Shown in pieces: positions 5,283 through 23,907 of a stretch of DNA of 44,060 nt. The notes beneath the pieces were generated by a model. The model was not told where the DNA came from, ran no database searches, and worked only from the letters and a program-made list of their open reading frames with translations. Position 1 is the stretch's first letter. Each line of letters starts with the position of its first letter. Source of the DNA: a virus; IMG/VR virus record IMGVR_UViG_3300006080_000302, positions 1 through 44,060 of that record. One strand, written 5' to 3'. Position numbers and translations under genes: made by a program.

Positions 5283-6011
5283 TTATTTCTTGGGCTTATT
5301 GCCGCTGTTGTAGTGGCGTAAATTACCATGTCGACCAATGATTCTTGCTTTTCTCTTTTTTACAGCTTTGAGCCTTTTCAGTTCAATGTCATATTCGCTT
5401 GGTTTATCCAAAAATCGATTATCAGGTGTTTTGTTTTTCTCATTTTGCTTCTTTAACTGTGCTAGATCGGAAGCTAGTTTGTCTTGTTGTATATGATACA
5501 CCTTTTCAGCATCTGCCCAATCATAACCTGGATCGATCGTAGGATCATTGCCCTTCTCATGATGTGACCATATTTCCCTACCTTTGGCGTCGCCTTCCTT
5601 GCCAATACCATTGAAGTGATCTTCGTCGTTTTGTTTAATTTGTAGAGCACGATCAGGACCTATATCGATCATCGGGATGTCTGACCCATCATCAACATCT
5701 GGTTTAGATTCTGCTGGCGCGTGAGCATCATAGGCATCTAACCCGCCGAGTAACGCCACCGAGGGGAGTGGCTTGCTCAATACGTCCAATGTCTTCATCG
5801 ATCCATGCCCGGTGGCCTTCACTACTGGGTTTTGTCCAAACTTAGATTGTGCTATCTTTTTGCCGATAGCCTTGATACCGTTTATTGCCGGGCGGGCAAA
5901 TCTTGCTGCCGCGGCTGCAACAGCTGGAGCTGCCGCAATCGCACCATATACAAGTGGGATGACTTCATCTAGTTGTTCTCTGTCTTCTGATATAATTTCA
6001 TTAATTTTCAT
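5283..6011 (-). CDS. Candidate head-internal protein with capsid-targeting leader, 242 aa
   Basis: It begins MKINEIISED, a short amphipathic leader ending in I-x-E, the cleavage signature of T4-type prohead protease gp21 and similar to the targeting peptides of T4 internal proteins. An Ala-rich hydrophobic segment (about 20-40) and a basic stretch follow, then a disordered charged region and a Lys/Arg-rich C-terminus. A Shine-Dalgarno AAGGA precedes the ATG. The gene lies 22 bases downstream of another protein with an almost identical leader. Targeting to the prohead is inferred; the protein body matches nothing I know. Confidence 0.6.
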   Translation of the reverse strand: MKINEIISEDREQLDEVIPLVYGAIAAAPAVAAAAARFARPAINGIKAIGKKIAQSKFGQNPVVKATGHGSMKTLDVLSKPLPSVALLGGLDAYDAHAPAESKPDVDDGSDIPMIDIGPDRALQIKQNDEDHFNGIGKEGDAKGREIWSHHEKGNDPTIDPGYDWADAEKVYHIQQDKLASDLAQLKKQNEKNKTPDNRFLDKPSEYDIELKRLKAVKKRKARIIGRHGNLRHYNSGNKPKK

Positions 6012-13741: not shown

Positions 13742-15367
13742 TTATCCAAATTGTGTGTTTGAGAAATTCGCCTTACTAAATTCTAATCTATCTACCAATT
13801 TAACAGCGTTGCCTATATGGTCAATTGCCACAAATCCTTCAGGTGCTGTTACTTTAAAACTACCGTCGCCTTGCTCGATAAAACTATCGATGCTTTGTGC
13901 GGTGTTAAACTTGTTAATGATTAATTTCTTTATTGCTTTGACTCTCAGATACAAACCATATATGTCTGAAAGTTGCTGTCTATTTGCTTCTACCCATTCC
14001 AAGCTAGATTTAAGGGTTTCTGCTCTTCGTTGTCCTGCTGGTCCTTCTCTCCCAGTTTTTAATTTTTGAATTGCAGTCTCTGTGTTGTTAAATAGACGCT
14101 GTGTAAAATCATCAACGAATTGTGAAGGATCATCAGTTAAGCTGCCTTGTCTAACATATTGATTAATATGTGCTTTTAACTGTACTACTAAATCTCTAAT
14201 AGGACCAGTAGATAATACTGAGAACGTTTCAGGCCTCAAGTCACCCATATACGCTTTCATGTCGTTTATGCCTTGTACCATTGCGCTACTCTCATCTGCT
14301 GTCATTAGCATCTTTCCACTAACATCTTTATATGTTGCATCATCAAAAAATACACTAGGTACTTGATTTAAGCCTGATACATCAACATCAAATCCAGCTG
14401 ACATATTGGCAATACTGTCGCCAGTATAATTTGTATGGAAAATAACTCCAATCTTGGCAGTTGATATACGTGTTGCTAACTCACTTCCTTCTGGAACAGC
14501 ATATGTTATTGTATTTGGTTTAAACACAATATGTGGTGTTCCATCAATATCTGCTGAACGTAGCATATCCTTAGTGAAAATAATATCACCCTGTATTACG
14601 CCTGTGATGTTCAGTTTTGCGAGTTCTACTAGTGCTACACGTAACTTATCACGTAATCCTGCTCTATCGCCCTCTTCCTTCATATCACCGTGATTTCTCA
14701 TTATATCATCTAATGACTTATTAAGCTTTGGGTTCTTTGTGAATACAGATTTAGTACCAACAAAGAATCTTCCATCTTCAGGATCAACACCAGCAATAAC
14801 AGCCGGTGCTCCATCCCACTTAACAGTTACATCAACAGCACTATTAGTATTACCATGAAGCATTTCATACAAACCTGCGAAGTAATTAATAATATTTTGT
14901 ACGCCAGGCAACCCGTTGTTTAGAATGTCGTCTTCTAAATGTTCTAAATGTGTATTTTTAGCTTCCCAAAGTAGATCCGTGTTTTCTACCGTATATTCAC
15001 GATCAGATGTTTTGAAATCTTTCTTACGCATTATAGTCTTAGCAATAAGATCTAATTCTTCATCCTCGTAATCTTGTGTTATGACAAATGGCAAATTGAT
15101 GTCAGTAGCCAAATCCTTCATTACTGCTTCATCGCCAATATTCATAGAGGCTATTTGTCTGCCCCATCGTTTCGCTTCTTGTTTAAATAATCTAACCAGT
15201 TCACTAGATGTAATTTGGTTGACATTTCTAGCGTCATTTACTCTATCTAAAAAATGCTTGGTGAATTCTACATCTATCCCTAACTTAGAAAATATACGAT
15301 CAACATATATTTCTAAATTGTTTAGATCACCTGCGGTTAATTGTTTGTCTACTTCTAATATTCTCAT
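13742..15367 (-). CDS. DUF6267-like protein with ligase-type KWDG motif, 541 aa
   Basis: The N-terminal domain (about 30-125) carries FTKHFLDRVND, AVMKDLATDINLPFV and IMRKKDF, a pattern common in T4-like marine phage proteins. The following domain resembles DUF6267 and contains VTVKWDGAPAV (181-190), identical in form to the K-x-D-G motif I of ATP-dependent ligases. ITGVIQGDIIF (about 254-264) sits where motif III would be, and HIVFKPN (about 279-285) may be motif IV/V-like. The leader MRILEVD has I-x-E and could be capsid-targeting. The late promoter lies 5 bases before the ATG. A nucleotidyltransferase activity is inferred only. Confidence 0.7.
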   Translation of the reverse strand: MRILEVDKQLTAGDLNNLEIYVDRIFSKLGIDVEFTKHFLDRVNDARNVNQITSSELVRLFKQEAKRWGRQIASMNIGDEAVMKDLATDINLPFVITQDYEDEELDLIAKTIMRKKDFKTSDREYTVENTDLLWEAKNTHLEHLEDDILNNGLPGVQNIINYFAGLYEMLHGNTNSAVDVTVKWDGAPAVIAGVDPEDGRFFVGTKSVFTKNPKLNKSLDDIMRNHGDMKEEGDRAGLRDKLRVALVELAKLNITGVIQGDIIFTKDMLRSADIDGTPHIVFKPNTITYAVPEGSELATRISTAKIGVIFHTNYTGDSIANMSAGFDVDVSGLNQVPSVFFDDATYKDVSGKMLMTADESSAMVQGINDMKAYMGDLRPETFSVLSTGPIRDLVVQLKAHINQYVRQGSLTDDPSQFVDDFTQRLFNNTETAIQKLKTGREGPAGQRRAETLKSSLEWVEANRQQLSDIYGLYLRVKAIKKLIINKFNTAQSIDSFIEQGDGSFKVTAPEGFVAIDHIGNAVKLVDRLEFSKANFSNTQFG

Positions 15368-15372
15368 ATCGC

Positions 15373-15380
15373 TATTTATT
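15373..15380 (-). promoter_or_regulatory. Late promoter, 5 bases before ATG
   Basis: Minus-strand AATAAATA, GCGAT, ATG. The transcript start predicted from T4 practice coincides with the start codon of the 541-aa gene, so this mRNA may be leaderless. Confidence 0.55.
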
Positions 15381-15547
15381 CAACTCTTATTATGTTTAAA
15401 ATAATGAACCTGTCGTTCACGTTCAACTGCTTTTTTGCGTGACTTGTACGGGCCGCCAAGTCTCTTGCGTTTGCCATTCTTGCCTTTACTTTTACTGTAA
15501 AGGACATACCCCTTGGGTGTTTTGCGGATGACTTCTTCTATTTTCAT
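15380..15547 (-). CDS. Small basic phage protein, 55 aa
   Basis: A short frame starting MKIEEVIRKTPKGYVLYS and continuing with KRKRLGGPYKSRKKAVERER and a final QVHYFKH. The GGPYKS...A..R...V.YFKH pattern is one I associate with small or C-terminal domains in T4-like aquatic phages. It is strongly basic and may bind DNA or sit in the head. Its stop overlaps the late promoter of the next gene by one base, and it starts 1 base after the upstream stop. Function unknown. Confidence 0.6.
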   Translation of the reverse strand: MKIEEVIRKTPKGYVLYSKSKGKNGKRKRLGGPYKSRKKAVERERQVHYFKHNKS

Positions 15548-15548
15548 A

Positions 15549-15722
15549 CTATATGCCTGATTCTAATTTAATAATCGACATTTCAGTATTTAATTGAGAA
15601 GTTGCGGCCTTTACGCCTGCGGCGTACCCACTATCATATAGTGCCTGATTCATAGAAAACGCAAAGAATGCCACAATAGTCATACTCATTAAAGCAAAAA
15701 ATATTTGGTAAAAGTTTTTCAT
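15549..15722 (-). CDS. Small single-pass membrane protein, 57 aa
   Basis: The start is supported by AGGAG nine bases before the ATG at 15722. Residues 4-23 form one hydrophobic helix (FYQIFFALMSMTIVAFFAFS), followed by a short polar tail (GYAAGVKAATSQLNTE). It lies at the end of the EF-hand/RyR/coiled-coil operon and could be an accessory membrane protein of the same function. No family recognised. Confidence 0.55.
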   Translation of the reverse strand: MKNFYQIFFALMSMTIVAFFAFSMNQALYDSGYAAGVKAATSQLNTEMSIIKLESGI

Positions 15723-15739
15723 GTTTTTATTCTCCTCAT

Positions 15740-16135
15740 TTAAAACGGCATCATGCTGCCAAACATTCCCGTAGGACTAAAGTTATTGTTTATCGATCCC
15801 ACACTTTGATTCATATAATATAATTGTGAGTTCATACTATTTACAGTCTTAGTCAAGTTTACAATTTCAGTTTTCATACCTTCAGCAATGCCTACACCCT
15901 CATACATTGACTGTTTCATATAATCCATATCCTGGTTAATACTTTCCATAGAATACGCAATTGTATTCATATTCATTCTAATCGATTGTAAATCTTTCTG
16001 TCCTGAAGTAAATGACTGGGACCAAGTCTCCATATGTGTGTTCACTACATAACCAGCGTATATAAACATTGAAGCTACTAGCAATTGTGCCGTCGTTTGC
16101 AACCACTGACATGTCTTTGATGTGCATGTTTGCAT
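15740..16135 (-). CDS. Membrane-anchored Met-rich coiled-coil protein, 131 aa
   Basis: A short Cys-containing N-terminus (CTSKTCQ) leads to one hydrophobic helix (about 15-32). A long heptad-patterned region rich in Met, Asn and Gln follows (about 45-115), with the repeated theme MNxxxxxM and LYYMNQSVGSINNNF. It ends in a Gly/Met/Phe tail (FSPTGMFGSMMPF). This suggests a trimeric or dimeric fibre projecting from the membrane. It follows the RyR-domain gene by one base and shares its late promoter. Function unknown; a lysis or envelope role is possible. Confidence 0.65.
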   Translation of the reverse strand: MQTCTSKTCQWLQTTAQLLVASMFIYAGYVVNTHMETWSQSFTSGQKDLQSIRMNMNTIAYSMESINQDMDYMKQSMYEGVGIAEGMKTEIVNLTKTVNSMNSQLYYMNQSVGSINNNFSPTGMFGSMMPF

Positions 16136-16136
16136 A

Positions 16137-16700
16137 TTATAATCCTGTGTTAGAATTTATCCATTCTAATATTTCAATGTCAGTTGGTGATTTTGTTCTG
16201 CGATGGCTTTCAGATAAATTATCCCAATCACGTAAGGCTGGATGTGTCTTTTGTACACTATTAAAATATAATCCCCATCTCCATCCGTCTTTTACTAGCT
16301 CATCAACCCAACGATTGTGTCTCCACTTTGACATATCACCTGACACTTCTGATTTAATATCATCATCAATATCTATAGAGTTTTCAAAATCACCAAAGGC
16401 GGCTGCATCGTATAAGTTTGATATCTCAATATCAAAGTCACTGGAGAAAATATGTTCCCATACTTGCAGTATAAACTGAGTTTCTGTTTGTGTCAAGTCA
16501 CGATTCAATGGAATTGTATATATATGTTCAAATTCACAATCTGAACACGTACTATAATCCATACTTATTTCGTTACCATTCATCTCATAGACATGTACTA
16601 TGTTTTCAGGTCCAAACTCTTTTACTGTTCGGTACCATCTGTCCACTTGATCACCCTCTATAGATTCAGATGTTTTTAATTGAATATAGTGTTGATACAT
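16137..16700 (-). CDS. RyR-domain protein, 187 aa
   Basis: The C-terminal region (about 127-180) matches the RyR domain of ryanodine receptors and their prokaryotic relatives: H128-x-x-W131, KDGWRWG (137-143), THPALRDW (152-159), LSESHRR (162-168). The N-terminal 120 residues include a CSDC pair and an acidic stretch (IDIDDDIKSE) with no known fold. Prokaryotic RyR domains have been proposed to sense nucleotide-derived ligands in conflict systems. The gene overlaps the EF-hand-loop membrane gene by one base, so their products probably act together. The ligand is unknown. Confidence 0.65.
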   Translation of the reverse strand: MYQHYIQLKTSESIEGDQVDRWYRTVKEFGPENIVHVYEMNGNEISMDYSTCSDCEFEHIYTIPLNRDLTQTETQFILQVWEHIFSSDFDIEISNLYDAAAFGDFENSIDIDDDIKSEVSGDMSKWRHNRWVDELVKDGWRWGLYFNSVQKTHPALRDWDNLSESHRRTKSPTDIEILEWINSNTGL

Positions 16701-16951
16701 TATTTAGATTTATCTCCACTATTGACATATAGGCCAAACCAAGCGGCGCCTGCGCCAACTACAACTGAAACTAGTCCAGCTTGTGCATTATTTGGATCAG
16801 GTAATGCCATAAACCATTGTACTACTTCATAAAACATATATATGTACACCGTGATAAACACTCTAGGAAATATTCTAAGCTTATCTATCCAAACAGGAAT
16901 TGCTTCAACAAAGCTTACCTTACCATCTTCATTTATATCAGTAGTACTCAT
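16700..16951 (-). CDS. Two-helix membrane protein with EF-hand-like loop, 83 aa
   Basis: The N-terminus has DINEDGKVSFVE (residues 5-16), which fits a calcium-binding EF-hand loop with D5, N7, D9, G10, a hydrophobic residue at V12 and E16. Two membrane helices follow (about 30-49 and 58-76, ending GAGAAWFGLYVNSG). The size and topology would fit a holin-like protein. No pairing EF-hand is seen, so calcium binding is uncertain. A late promoter with an exact TATAAATA box lies about 26 bases upstream. Confidence 0.65.
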   Translation of the reverse strand: MSTTDINEDGKVSFVEAIPVWIDKLRIFPRVFITVYIYMFYEVVQWFMALPDPNNAQAGLVSVVVGAGAAWFGLYVNSGDKSK

Positions 16952-16976: not shown

Positions 16977-16984
16977 TATTTATA
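16977..16984 (-). promoter_or_regulatory. Late promoter (exact TATAAATA)
   Basis: The minus-strand box followed by CATT stands 25 bases before the ATG at 16951. It should drive the five-gene operon down to 15380. Confidence 0.7.
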
Positions 16985-16998
16985 GTCATCTAGTCACA

Positions 16999-17024
16999 AA
17001 GAAGCCCGCAGATGCGGGCTTCTT
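16999..17024 (-). terminator. Rho-independent terminator
   Basis: An 11-bp perfect stem AAGAAGCCCGC/GCGGGCTTCTT with a 4-base AGAT loop, followed in the minus direction by a T-rich TTCTTTG tail. It lies just downstream of the gene ending at 17044 and insulates it from the next late promoter. The T-rich run on the other side is compatible with weak bidirectional action. Confidence 0.85.
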
Positions 17025-17043: not shown

Positions 17044-17361
17044 TTATAAACCTGCGTCTGTCACTGTAGCTGCTGCAAAGATACCACCAACAGCTTGAAC
17101 TGCTGTTTCTAAGTCTGCTGCTGTCCATGAACTACCTTCCATGTATAAGTTGAAAGTAGAATTTGTCGAATCATCAGTCATTGCACCCATGCCCATCATT
17201 GTGCCTTTTTGTGCTGCTGCTTCAACAAAACCTTCCATGTCTTCACCTGGGTTAGTTTGTCCTGCTGCACCTGTTGCTGCTGAAATAGCGAATACTGAAA
17301 TAGTAGCGCCAAAGTTTACTACACCAAATTCGATTGTGTTGTTTGGATTACGTGTTGCCAT
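17044..17361 (-). CDS. Small Ala/Gly-rich probable structural protein, 105 aa
   Basis: The protein is rich in Ala, Gly, Thr and Met, lacks long charged stretches (NFGATISVFAISAATGAAG, then AVQAVGGIFAAATVTDAGL) and has no clear signal peptide. Composition and location between a tail fibre gene and a terminator suggest a virion component. It has AAAGGAG before the ATG, its own late promoter overlapping the upstream stop codon, and a dedicated terminator. A monocistronic unit like this suggests high expression. The family is unknown. Confidence 0.6.
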   Translation of the reverse strand: MATRNPNNTIEFGVVNFGATISVFAISAATGAAGQTNPGEDMEGFVEAAAQKGTMMGMGAMTDDSTNSTFNLYMEGSSWTAADLETAVQAVGGIFAAATVTDAGL

Positions 17362-22476: not shown

Positions 22477-23152
22477 TCTTTAACCTTTTTATAAAATCAT
22501 TAATGTTATTTTCATTCAGCAATGGCACCTCTACCGTTGTATCGATATACATGTGACCATACTTTTTCTTTTTTCTATCATATAGTCCTTTATTTGGAAC
22601 TATAAGTCTTGATTGTTCTAAACTGTTTCTTGTAACTTGTACTCTATGTGGTTGACCGCACGGATCAATAACAACAATAGTATTGCCACATAATACATCT
22701 ATAATATCTATACGTCTAGACATTATAACATTAAATCCTTGCCGTGTAAAGCTATCATGTTGCTTTTCTTGAATATTAATTATATAAGTCTGATTTTCTT
22801 CTTCAACCTTAAATTTGTCGTTGGCCATTGCTCCTGGCAATATATTAACCTTTAGATATAATGGGGTCTTGTCACTTAGTACCACTCCAACATATCCATT
22901 CACGCCTTCTATTTGTTGGATAATATCCAACTTTAAATTAACATATAGGGCAGAAGGTGCTGAAACCACTGTTACTGGAGTTCTACCTTTTAGTTCATTA
23001 TACGCTTTTGTTATTTCTGAAAACATTTTATTGTTTCCGCCCTTATCAGGATGGTGTTGTTGTGCCAAGGCATGATATGCCGCGTGTATTTCTGCCTTAG
23101 ATGAAGCAGGAGATATTCTCAGAATATCCCAAGGATTATTTCCCAGTCTCAT
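22463..23152 (-). CDS. DnaJ/CbpA-like J-domain co-chaperone, 229 aa
   Basis: An N-terminal J domain with the HPD motif (34-36) in QQHHPDKGGN and the helix IV signature FSEITKAYNEL. There is no Cys-rich zinc finger, so it is CbpA-like. The C-terminal 150 residues resemble a DnaJ substrate-binding domain (GVNGYVGVVLSD, then GLYDRKKKKYG). It should stimulate host DnaK, perhaps feeding unfolded proteins to ClpA, whose gene it overlaps. It also overlaps the o-spanin gene by 17 bases. Phage J-proteins can assist replication or assembly, so the ClpA link is inference. Confidence 0.88.
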   Translation of the reverse strand: MRLGNNPWDILRISPASSKAEIHAAYHALAQQHHPDKGGNNKMFSEITKAYNELKGRTPVTVVSAPSALYVNLKLDIIQQIEGVNGYVGVVLSDKTPLYLKVNILPGAMANDKFKVEEENQTYIINIQEKQHDSFTRQGFNVIMSRRIDIIDVLCGNTIVVIDPCGQPHRVQVTRNSLEQSRLIVPNKGLYDRKKKKYGHMYIDTTVEVPLLNENNINDFIKRLKNDRN

Positions 23153-23489
23153 AGTACTGTTGATAGGCTATAATAATAGCCTGTTGTTGTTTCACTAACT
23201 TTATAATATCGGCAACGTTGAGAGATAAATTCTCATATCCGTTATCAGTTAATGCAAATAAAACTAGATCAGTTTTAGAATTTTCTAACTCTTTCCATAC
23301 ATCAGCTACATTTTCAGGAGTAACAACTATATACTTTATCTTTCTTGAACTGAGTACATCAACACTCGGTAACTCAAGCTTGGACTTTGTTATTTCTGAA
23401 CTACTGATATTGAGTATTTCTGGTATGCTGGTACAACTACTTAGGAATATCGTCGCTACCAACGCAAGAATTATATTCTTTTTCATCAT
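23136..23489 (-). CDS. Outer-membrane spanin (Rz1-like lipoprotein), 117 aa
   Basis: A signal peptide with lipobox LSSC (lipidated Cys19) is followed by a periplasmic domain ending in a helical segment (LNVADIIKLVKQQQAIIIAYQQYYE). The start lies inside the i-spanin gene in another frame, with an overlap of 53 bases, the classic embedded Rz/Rz1 arrangement. The partner would bridge inner and outer membranes and fuse them at lysis. The length is longer than lambda Rz1 but within the range of T4-like o-spanins. A lone lipoprotein is possible but less likely given the neighbour. Confidence 0.75.
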   Translation of the reverse strand: MMKKNIILALVATIFLSSCTSIPEILNISSSEITKSKLELPSVDVLSSRKIKYIVVTPENVADVWKELENSKTDLVLFALTDNGYENLSLNVADIIKLVKQQQAIIIAYQQYYETGK

Positions 23490-23907
23490 AGTCTCCTGTT
23501 GCTCCGCTTAAGATCTCAAAGCAGTTGGCAGTTTTATCCACTGCCGAATTAATTATTTTCTCTACGAGTTTAGGCTTCTTTGTGCCTATCTCACCAAAAT
23601 CTCTACTATCGCCGCTCTTACTCTTATTGAACTTATTTTCTAAGTCAACCACTTGTTTTCTACTTTCAGTAAATTTCTCATTTAAATCTGTCATAGTAGA
23701 TTGCATTCTTTCGAAATCTTGAGTTAATTGAGTAATTGCGTTTGACTGTACAAATAACGCCTGTTCCATTACCGACTTATTATCTGCATAAGTCTTAAAC
23801 GCCTTTTGTGTATCTGTATAATACCAATATGCCGCTCCGACTACGCTAGTAATAGCAAGGCCTAATATTATATATGTTTTAAATCCACTAAGAAATCCAA
23901 ACATCAT
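23437..23907 (-). CDS. Inner-membrane spanin (Rz-like), 156 aa
   Basis: One N-terminal membrane helix (about 9-28, YIILGLAITSVVGAAYWYY) is followed by a long coiled coil (about 35-95, NAITQLTQDFERMQSTM and VVDLENKFNKSK). A C-terminal domain has two Cys (NCFEILSG and NSCVG) that could form a disulfide in the periplasm. This matches i-spanin topology. The embedded lipoprotein gene provides the o-spanin. It overlaps the IF-1 gene by ATGA. No holin or endolysin is adjacent. Confidence 0.75.
   Translation of the reverse strand: MMFGFLSGFKTYIILGLAITSVVGAAYWYYTDTQKAFKTYADNKSVMEQALFVQSNAITQLTQDFERMQSTMTDLNEKFTESRKQVVDLENKFNKSKSGDSRDFGEIGTKKPKLVEKIINSAVDKTANCFEILSGATGDYDEKEYNSCVGSDDIPK

Follow-up and report, generated by a model that had tools for sequence, protein, structure and literature searches.

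The sequence examined here, referred to as the window, is a linear fragment of 44 kb (44,060 nt) from IMG/VR; it derives from a T4-like marine phage and encodes a DNA polymerase, ClpA, PhoH and virion proteins. Five genes follow one another on its minus strand, with intergenic spacings of -1, +1, +17 and +1 nt in order: gene 1 (16700–16951), which encodes an 83-aa membrane protein with two transmembrane (TM) helices and an EF-hand loop, belongs to family phrog_10198 and is a holin or holin-like candidate; gene 2 (16137–16700), which encodes a 187-aa two-domain RyR protein and overlaps gene 1 by one base; gene 3 (15740–16135), for a 131-aa coiled coil; gene 4 (15549–15722), for a 57-aa protein with a single N-terminal TM helix; and gene 5 (15380–15547), for a 55-aa basic protein. 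The operon of closely spaced genes described in the original prediction, including the two tiny genes after gene 3, is therefore borne out, and the block is longer still, as a gene for a DUF6267 protein (13742–15367; 541 aa, 334 bits) starts +12 nt past gene 5.

An exact copy of the T4-type late promoter candidate TATAAATA (16977–16984, minus strand) is present 26 nt ahead of gene 1, as had been noted. However, the window contains 10 copies of this box versus 9.4 expected by chance, so it is not enriched, and few relatives of gene 1 have an exact box in the 80 nt upstream. The box is too weak by itself as an argument for late expression, and the designation of these genes as late depends mainly on their gene context. 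A 12-bp hairpin (16999–17024), a candidate terminator, lies between gene 1 and the upstream gene (17044–17361) for a 105-aa protein (MATRNPNNTIEFG...); similar proteins of 101–108 aa precede genes 1 and 2 in many loci.

Genes 1 to 3 had been grouped as a trio. The product of gene 3 does have a Met/Asn-rich coiled coil, but its supposed membrane anchor is limited to a hydrophobic N-terminus that falls below the TM threshold used. Our searches detected no relatives of gene 3, and the unit that is conserved proved to be the pair of genes 1 and 2. In locus L059 the gene directly 3' of the gene 1 homolog (5464–5868) is a possible counterpart of gene 3, as it encodes a DUF7201 coiled coil that is hydrophobic over a C-terminal stretch.

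The EF-hand loop of gene 1, DINEDGKVSFVE (16904–16939, minus strand; residues 5–16), can be read directly from the translation. It fits the 12-residue EF-loop pattern with ligands at positions 1, 3, 5, 9, and 12, and is the sole strict EF loop in the window when all six-frame segments of 50 aa or longer are considered. The AlphaFold model of the protein (mean pLDDT 81) predicts a juxtamembrane helix after the loop (residues 14–24; 16880–16912) and two membrane helices, the first with a conserved core (residues 27–49; 16805–16873) and the second carrying the motif QAGLVSVVVGAGAAWFGLYVNS (residues 55–76; 16724–16789), a membrane core that is nearly invariant across the family. Sequence and model thus confirm the loop and the two membrane helices that had been predicted. 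The family, phrog_10198, is of unknown function and has at least 597 matching stretches in IMG/VR; among its named members, those closest to gene 1 come from Pelagibacter phage Mosig and from Vibrio phages of the KVP40 type. In Salicola phage SCTP-2 (L201, about 182.8–183.4 kb) it is tandemly duplicated and fused as one protein of ~190 aa.

Among the 76 distinct members of the gene 1 family in the loci fetched, 36 have the EF loop and 40 do not. In the 36 loop-bearing homologs, positions 1, 5, 9, and 12 are D, D, S, and E at 97–100%, position 3 is without exception N or D, and positions 2, 4, 10, and 11 are variable; by the measure of usual EF-hand residues, positions 1, 3, 5, and 12 are conserved at 86–100%. 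The loop is at a constant distance from the membrane core in 35 of the 36. Such a distribution is as expected under selection for metal ligands, and we consider gene 1 to have a putative Ca2+-binding site. Gene 1 has no Pfam match, its homologs reach only ~14–15 bits against the EF-hand profile, which is below the cut-off, and its loop begins at residue 5 with no entering helix. Gene 1 therefore carries a lone EF loop and not a helix-loop-helix EF-hand.

The RyR domain of gene 2 (16158–16346, minus strand; residues 119–181) had likewise been recognized from the sequence alone, and a profile search upheld it with a match to PF02026 of 33.0 bits versus a cut-off of 27.4. Matches of gene 2 to PDB sequences are nearly all to ryanodine receptors (phmmer 8.9e-8 to a RyR1 chimera), the top Foldseek matches are RyR structures (E about 0.003), and both the sequence and fold searches also return the Bacteroides thetaiotaomicron RyR protein. 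The gene 2 model (mean pLDDT 86, pTM 0.50) has in addition a distinct N-terminal alpha/beta domain (16413–16700; residues 1–96) that is weakly ferredoxin/S6-like and common to jumbo-phage RyR proteins. Among named phages, the only proteins that match both domains come from Atu_ph07 and Phosso, with a weaker match in SCTP-2. When single proteins were used to scan IMG/VR and genomes for RyR relatives, none was found; the RyR profile also found nothing in genomes, while it succeeded on IMG/VR.

The suggestion that prokaryotic RyR domains are nucleotide sensors in conflict systems has gained experimental backing from other phage proteins. According to a 2026 preprint, phage RyR proteins bind or cleave 2'/3'cADPR, with six of eight tested phage R12 domains binding this nucleotide and two tested sponge-type homologs overcoming Thoeris (PMC13232231). 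To compare ligand residues, we aligned the RyDEP protein of that study, gp78 of phage DyoEdafos (MN234187.1), with gene 2 and its siblings. RyDEP residues H75, W78, and H100 correspond to H128, W131, and H153 in gene 2, which thereby fits the ligand-contact residues of the sponge type. The equivalents of H75 and W78 are invariant in this alignment, and the H100 position is H in the clade of the window and D in an HscB-type clade. We rejected a RyDEP-type glycosidase function, which would employ an H75/D117 dyad, based on the fact that H128 is retained but the position of the catalytic D117 is occupied by K170 in gene 2 and by P in its siblings, and is S or missing in the other sequences. As the H, W, and H are kept and the catalytic Asp is lost, gene 2 is expected, from its sequence, to bind an ADPR-type nucleotide without cleaving it. 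We know of no tested RyR homolog from the gene 2 clade.

Gene 2 has both similarities to and differences from the characterized phage proteins. It shares the RyR/R12 domain and the three contact residues with RyDEP and its sponge-type homologs (PMC13232231), but has the additional N-terminal domain, lacks D117, and is situated behind a holin-like gene and not in a NARP1 NAD+ operon. Six control phage RyR proteins (of Mansal, Gutmeister, Aeh1, PCH45, Bajun, and Sloopyjoe) retain KD at the D117 region, do not have an N-terminal domain of the gene 2 type, and have no holin annotated alongside, so that a position next to holin-type genes is a trait of the two-domain subfamily. In Salmonella phage Mansal the RyR gene directly precedes genes for PRPP synthetase and nicotinate phosphoribosyltransferase (L196:1799–5129), like RyDEP in its NARP1 operon. 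In gp67 of Arthrobacter phage Sloopyjoe (L194:1904–2737) an RyR domain is fused behind a hydrophobic, probably multi-TM N-terminal domain, a natural membrane-RyR fusion.

The pairing of genes 1 and 2 occurs in many marine phages. PF02026 scored above its cut-off in 27 of 50 records containing gene 1; in every one of these 27, the start of the RyR gene is -14 to +13 nt from the end of gene 1. As an independent check against bias we scanned IMG/VR by the RyR profile alone and obtained 80 loci, in 59 of which gene 1 is -2 to +23 nt upstream of the RyR gene, although these pairing counts are inflated because many contigs are near-identical copies. In one further locus (L137) gene 1 is 528 nt from the RyR gene, with two small genes in between, one of which has a likely TM segment, and in another (L171) the RyR gene is at the contig edge. 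In 50 of 83 loci a UvdE gene lies downstream at a distance of no more than 1.8 kb, and part of the linkage between genes 1 and 2 is therefore general block synteny. This UvdE-type UV endonuclease is a frequent third neighbor after the RyR gene (L150, L151, L155, L161, L041, and others).

In most of the other loci the RyR gene follows a different membrane gene. In about 15 of them the gene before it encodes a 2-TM protein of a second kind, also with an EF loop at its N-terminus, which we term family 2 (e.g., DTNGDGQVSKEE in L149 and DVDGDGIVSDEE in L157). Homology between gene 1 (family 1) and family 2 was not accepted, as the hhalign probability is 9%, and the two families are mutually exclusive in the records searched, except for distant copies in SCTP-2 and G058. 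In L178 the protein ahead of the RyR gene passes the cut-off of PF11351, GTA_holin_3TM (28.4 versus 24.8 bits), and matches the holin family phrog_3427. In the rhizobial jumbo phages Phosso and Atu_ph07, whose RyR proteins have the same two-domain architecture as gene 2, the gene directly before the RyR gene is homologous to the L178 holin (BLASTP 4e-17 and 6e-16, respectively), although itself below the PF11351 cut-off; their holin-like partner is thus of another family than gene 1, which does not match PF11351. The RyR genes of L164, L165, and SCTP-2, the last also of two-domain architecture, have no adjoining membrane gene or holin.

In a tree of the RyR proteins, the family 2 partner arose at least twice, on the starred branches: L157 (family 2) is sister to the family 1 loci L142 and L147 with support of 100/99, and six other family 2 loci share a clade with five family 1 loci. 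The long branches (SCTP-2, L178, Atu_ph07, and Phosso) are placed less certainly. The membrane gene has been exchanged in place while the RyR gene kept its position behind it, and the occurrence of a recognized holin at this position in L178 favors a link between the RyR protein and holins. The EF loop and the RyR domain do not constitute one unit, however, as EF-bearing gene 1 homologs occur without an RyR gene (before tape-measure-like genes of ~550 aa) and RyR genes follow gene 1 homologs devoid of the loop.

In some other phages gene 1 lies in a lysis cassette, which makes a holin, or a lysis protein resembling one, the probable partner of the RyR protein. The order endolysin-Rz-Rz1-gene 1 is found in L059 and L070 (with two GH19 calls just below the Pfam cut-off), a GH108 endolysin and Rz1 precede gene 1 in L058, spanins only are found in the order Rz-Rz1-gene 1 in L077, and Rz-Rz1 are nearby in L065. 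The window phage has its own spanins on the minus strand 6.5 kb from gene 1, an inner-membrane Rz-like protein (phrog_739; 23437–23907) and an outer-membrane Rz1-like lipoprotein (phrog_812; 23136–23489), followed by DnaJ and ClpA genes; in L070, gene 1 is inserted between Rz1 and DnaJ of this Rz-Rz1-DnaJ-ClpA order. The small size of the gene 1 protein, its two long modeled hydrophobic helices, and the positive residues on both tails, with none in the intervening PDPNNAQ loop, would suit a two-TM holin with a predicted N-in/C-in orientation. Based on these features we lean, by a modest degree, toward gene 1 being a holin or holin-like lysis protein.

Several observations count against this assignment. 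Gene 1 matches no known holin family in Pfam, including PF11351, and phrog_10198 is functionally unassigned; a search with the profile of T4 holin T (PF11031) matched nothing anywhere and is uninformative. The gene 1 copies of Mosig and of pelagiphage-type loci are outside any lysis cassette, in the tail cluster between gp51 and a long tape-measure-like gene, and in phages HTVC008M and Melnitz a family 2 gene occupies this same site. Furthermore, Mosig has a separate borderline PF11351 holin (24.9 bits) and in CRP-810 a family 2 gene adjoins a PF11351 holin. A "putative lysozyme" beside CRP-207 gp72 resembles a TM coiled coil and was dropped as lysis evidence. Melnitz (L188:7937–9988) and HTVC008M (L189:7514–9349) have adenylate/guanylate cyclase genes in the neighborhood of the tape measure gene and the EF-loop membrane gene.

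The interpretation we favor, with a probability of roughly 40%, is lysis control by genes 1 and 2 as a pair: depending on an ADPR-type ligand, the RyR protein would act on the N-terminal tail that the membrane protein extends into the cytosol. The gene 1 protein would be an inner-membrane holin or holin-like hairpin whose two ends are cytosolic, with the Ca2+-type EF loop and juxtamembrane helix on its N-tail, and gene 2, translated from the overlapping downstream gene, would be its soluble partner. The RyR domain would bind 2'/3'cADPR, ADPR or a similar nucleotide without cleavage, and the ligand state would set whether gene 2 restrains or frees the holin, so that the timing of lysis would follow immune or metabolic signals derived from host NAD. 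The two domains, the conserved EF ligands, the conserved adjacency, the partner swapping and the lysis-cassette contexts are all observed; the holin identity of gene 1, nucleotide binding by gene 2, contact between the two proteins, the way in which control runs and a part for Ca2+ are what we infer. The D at the H100 position in one subclade and the three RyR genes with no membrane gene beside them are evidence against a lysis-control pair.

A precedent for the proposed logic, and for the logic only, is provided by T4. Hole formation there requires the N-terminal helix of holin T, which is cytosolic, and this helix is given as the site of action of the antiholin RIII, a soluble cytosolic protein (PMC12162936). 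The T holin differs from gene 1 in having one TM helix, a large periplasmic domain and no EF loop. The earlier idea of a lysis timer accords with the holin evidence. The EF loop and the RyR domain do not strictly co-occur. To our knowledge, RIII has no RyR domain.

Ca2+ could be a second input, even though the EF loop does not track the RyR gene. In the fullest version of such a switch, the holin tail would read Ca2+ via the EF loop and the RyR partner would read ADPR-type immune nucleotides of the host, which would enable the phage to burst the cell early, or to hold, when Thoeris-type immunity fires. We consider this version quite improbable. If true, it would be a split analog of the animal ryanodine receptor in the logic by which EF-hands, RyR domains and a channel are joined; that receptor combines RyR repeats, EF-hands and membrane helices, which in the phage are divided over two genes. 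This is a resemblance and not an established homology, whether for the membrane part or for the lone EF loop.

Of the alternatives to a lysis-control pair, the one that survives best is that gene 2 is an anti-Thoeris sponge for 2'/3'cADPR made by host TIR proteins, and shares an operon with a holin-like gene for expression or through inherited synteny, with no contact between the proteins. The demonstrated binding of 2'/3'cADPR by phage RyR proteins and the ability of sponge-type homologs to overcome Thoeris (PMC13232231) make this possible, as do the retained binding residues with K or P in place of the catalytic Asp, and the frequent UvdE neighbor indicates that the block is in part syntenic. 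However, RyDEP activity was detected early in infection, whereas gene 2 lies among virion and lysis genes, and mere co-residence does not predict an RyR gene behind apparently non-homologous membrane genes, one of them a recognized holin. On balance we regard the sponge explanation as plausible though doubtful.

It is unlikely, in our estimation, that gene 1 and family 2 are instead membrane proteins of infection or virion assembly (e.g., in genome entry or tail function) and that the RyR protein acts there. Such a role would explain why the HTVC008M, Melnitz, and Mosig genes are between a baseplate hub assembly gene and a tape-measure or long hypothetical gene, and why Mosig and CRP-810 have a separate recognized holin, but it does not account for the endolysin or spanin neighbors in L058, L059, L070, L077, and L065, or for the replacement of gene 1 before the RyR gene by the PF11351 holin and its relatives. 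Passive synteny within one late block of related phages, with no function of its own, is very improbable: many loci do share the upstream 101–108-aa gene and downstream UvdE, and near-identical contigs inflate the counts, but the pair persists with HscB-type flanks, with quite different downstream genes in the window and with a DNA ligase nearby in the jumbo phages, and its partners are swapped in place.

The evidence that phage RyR domains bind or cleave nucleotides of host immunity is very recent, and our search of the literature found no report of a link between RyR proteins and holins or of a holin with an EF loop. The pairing also provides a first functional lead for phrog_10198, a family common in marine phages. 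The existence of a distinct two-domain RyR subfamily behind holin-type genes, kept in place even where an apparently unrelated membrane gene has taken over, points to a connection between immune nucleotides and lysis timing, and suggests a link between the immunity signals of the host and the time at which these phages burst the cell.
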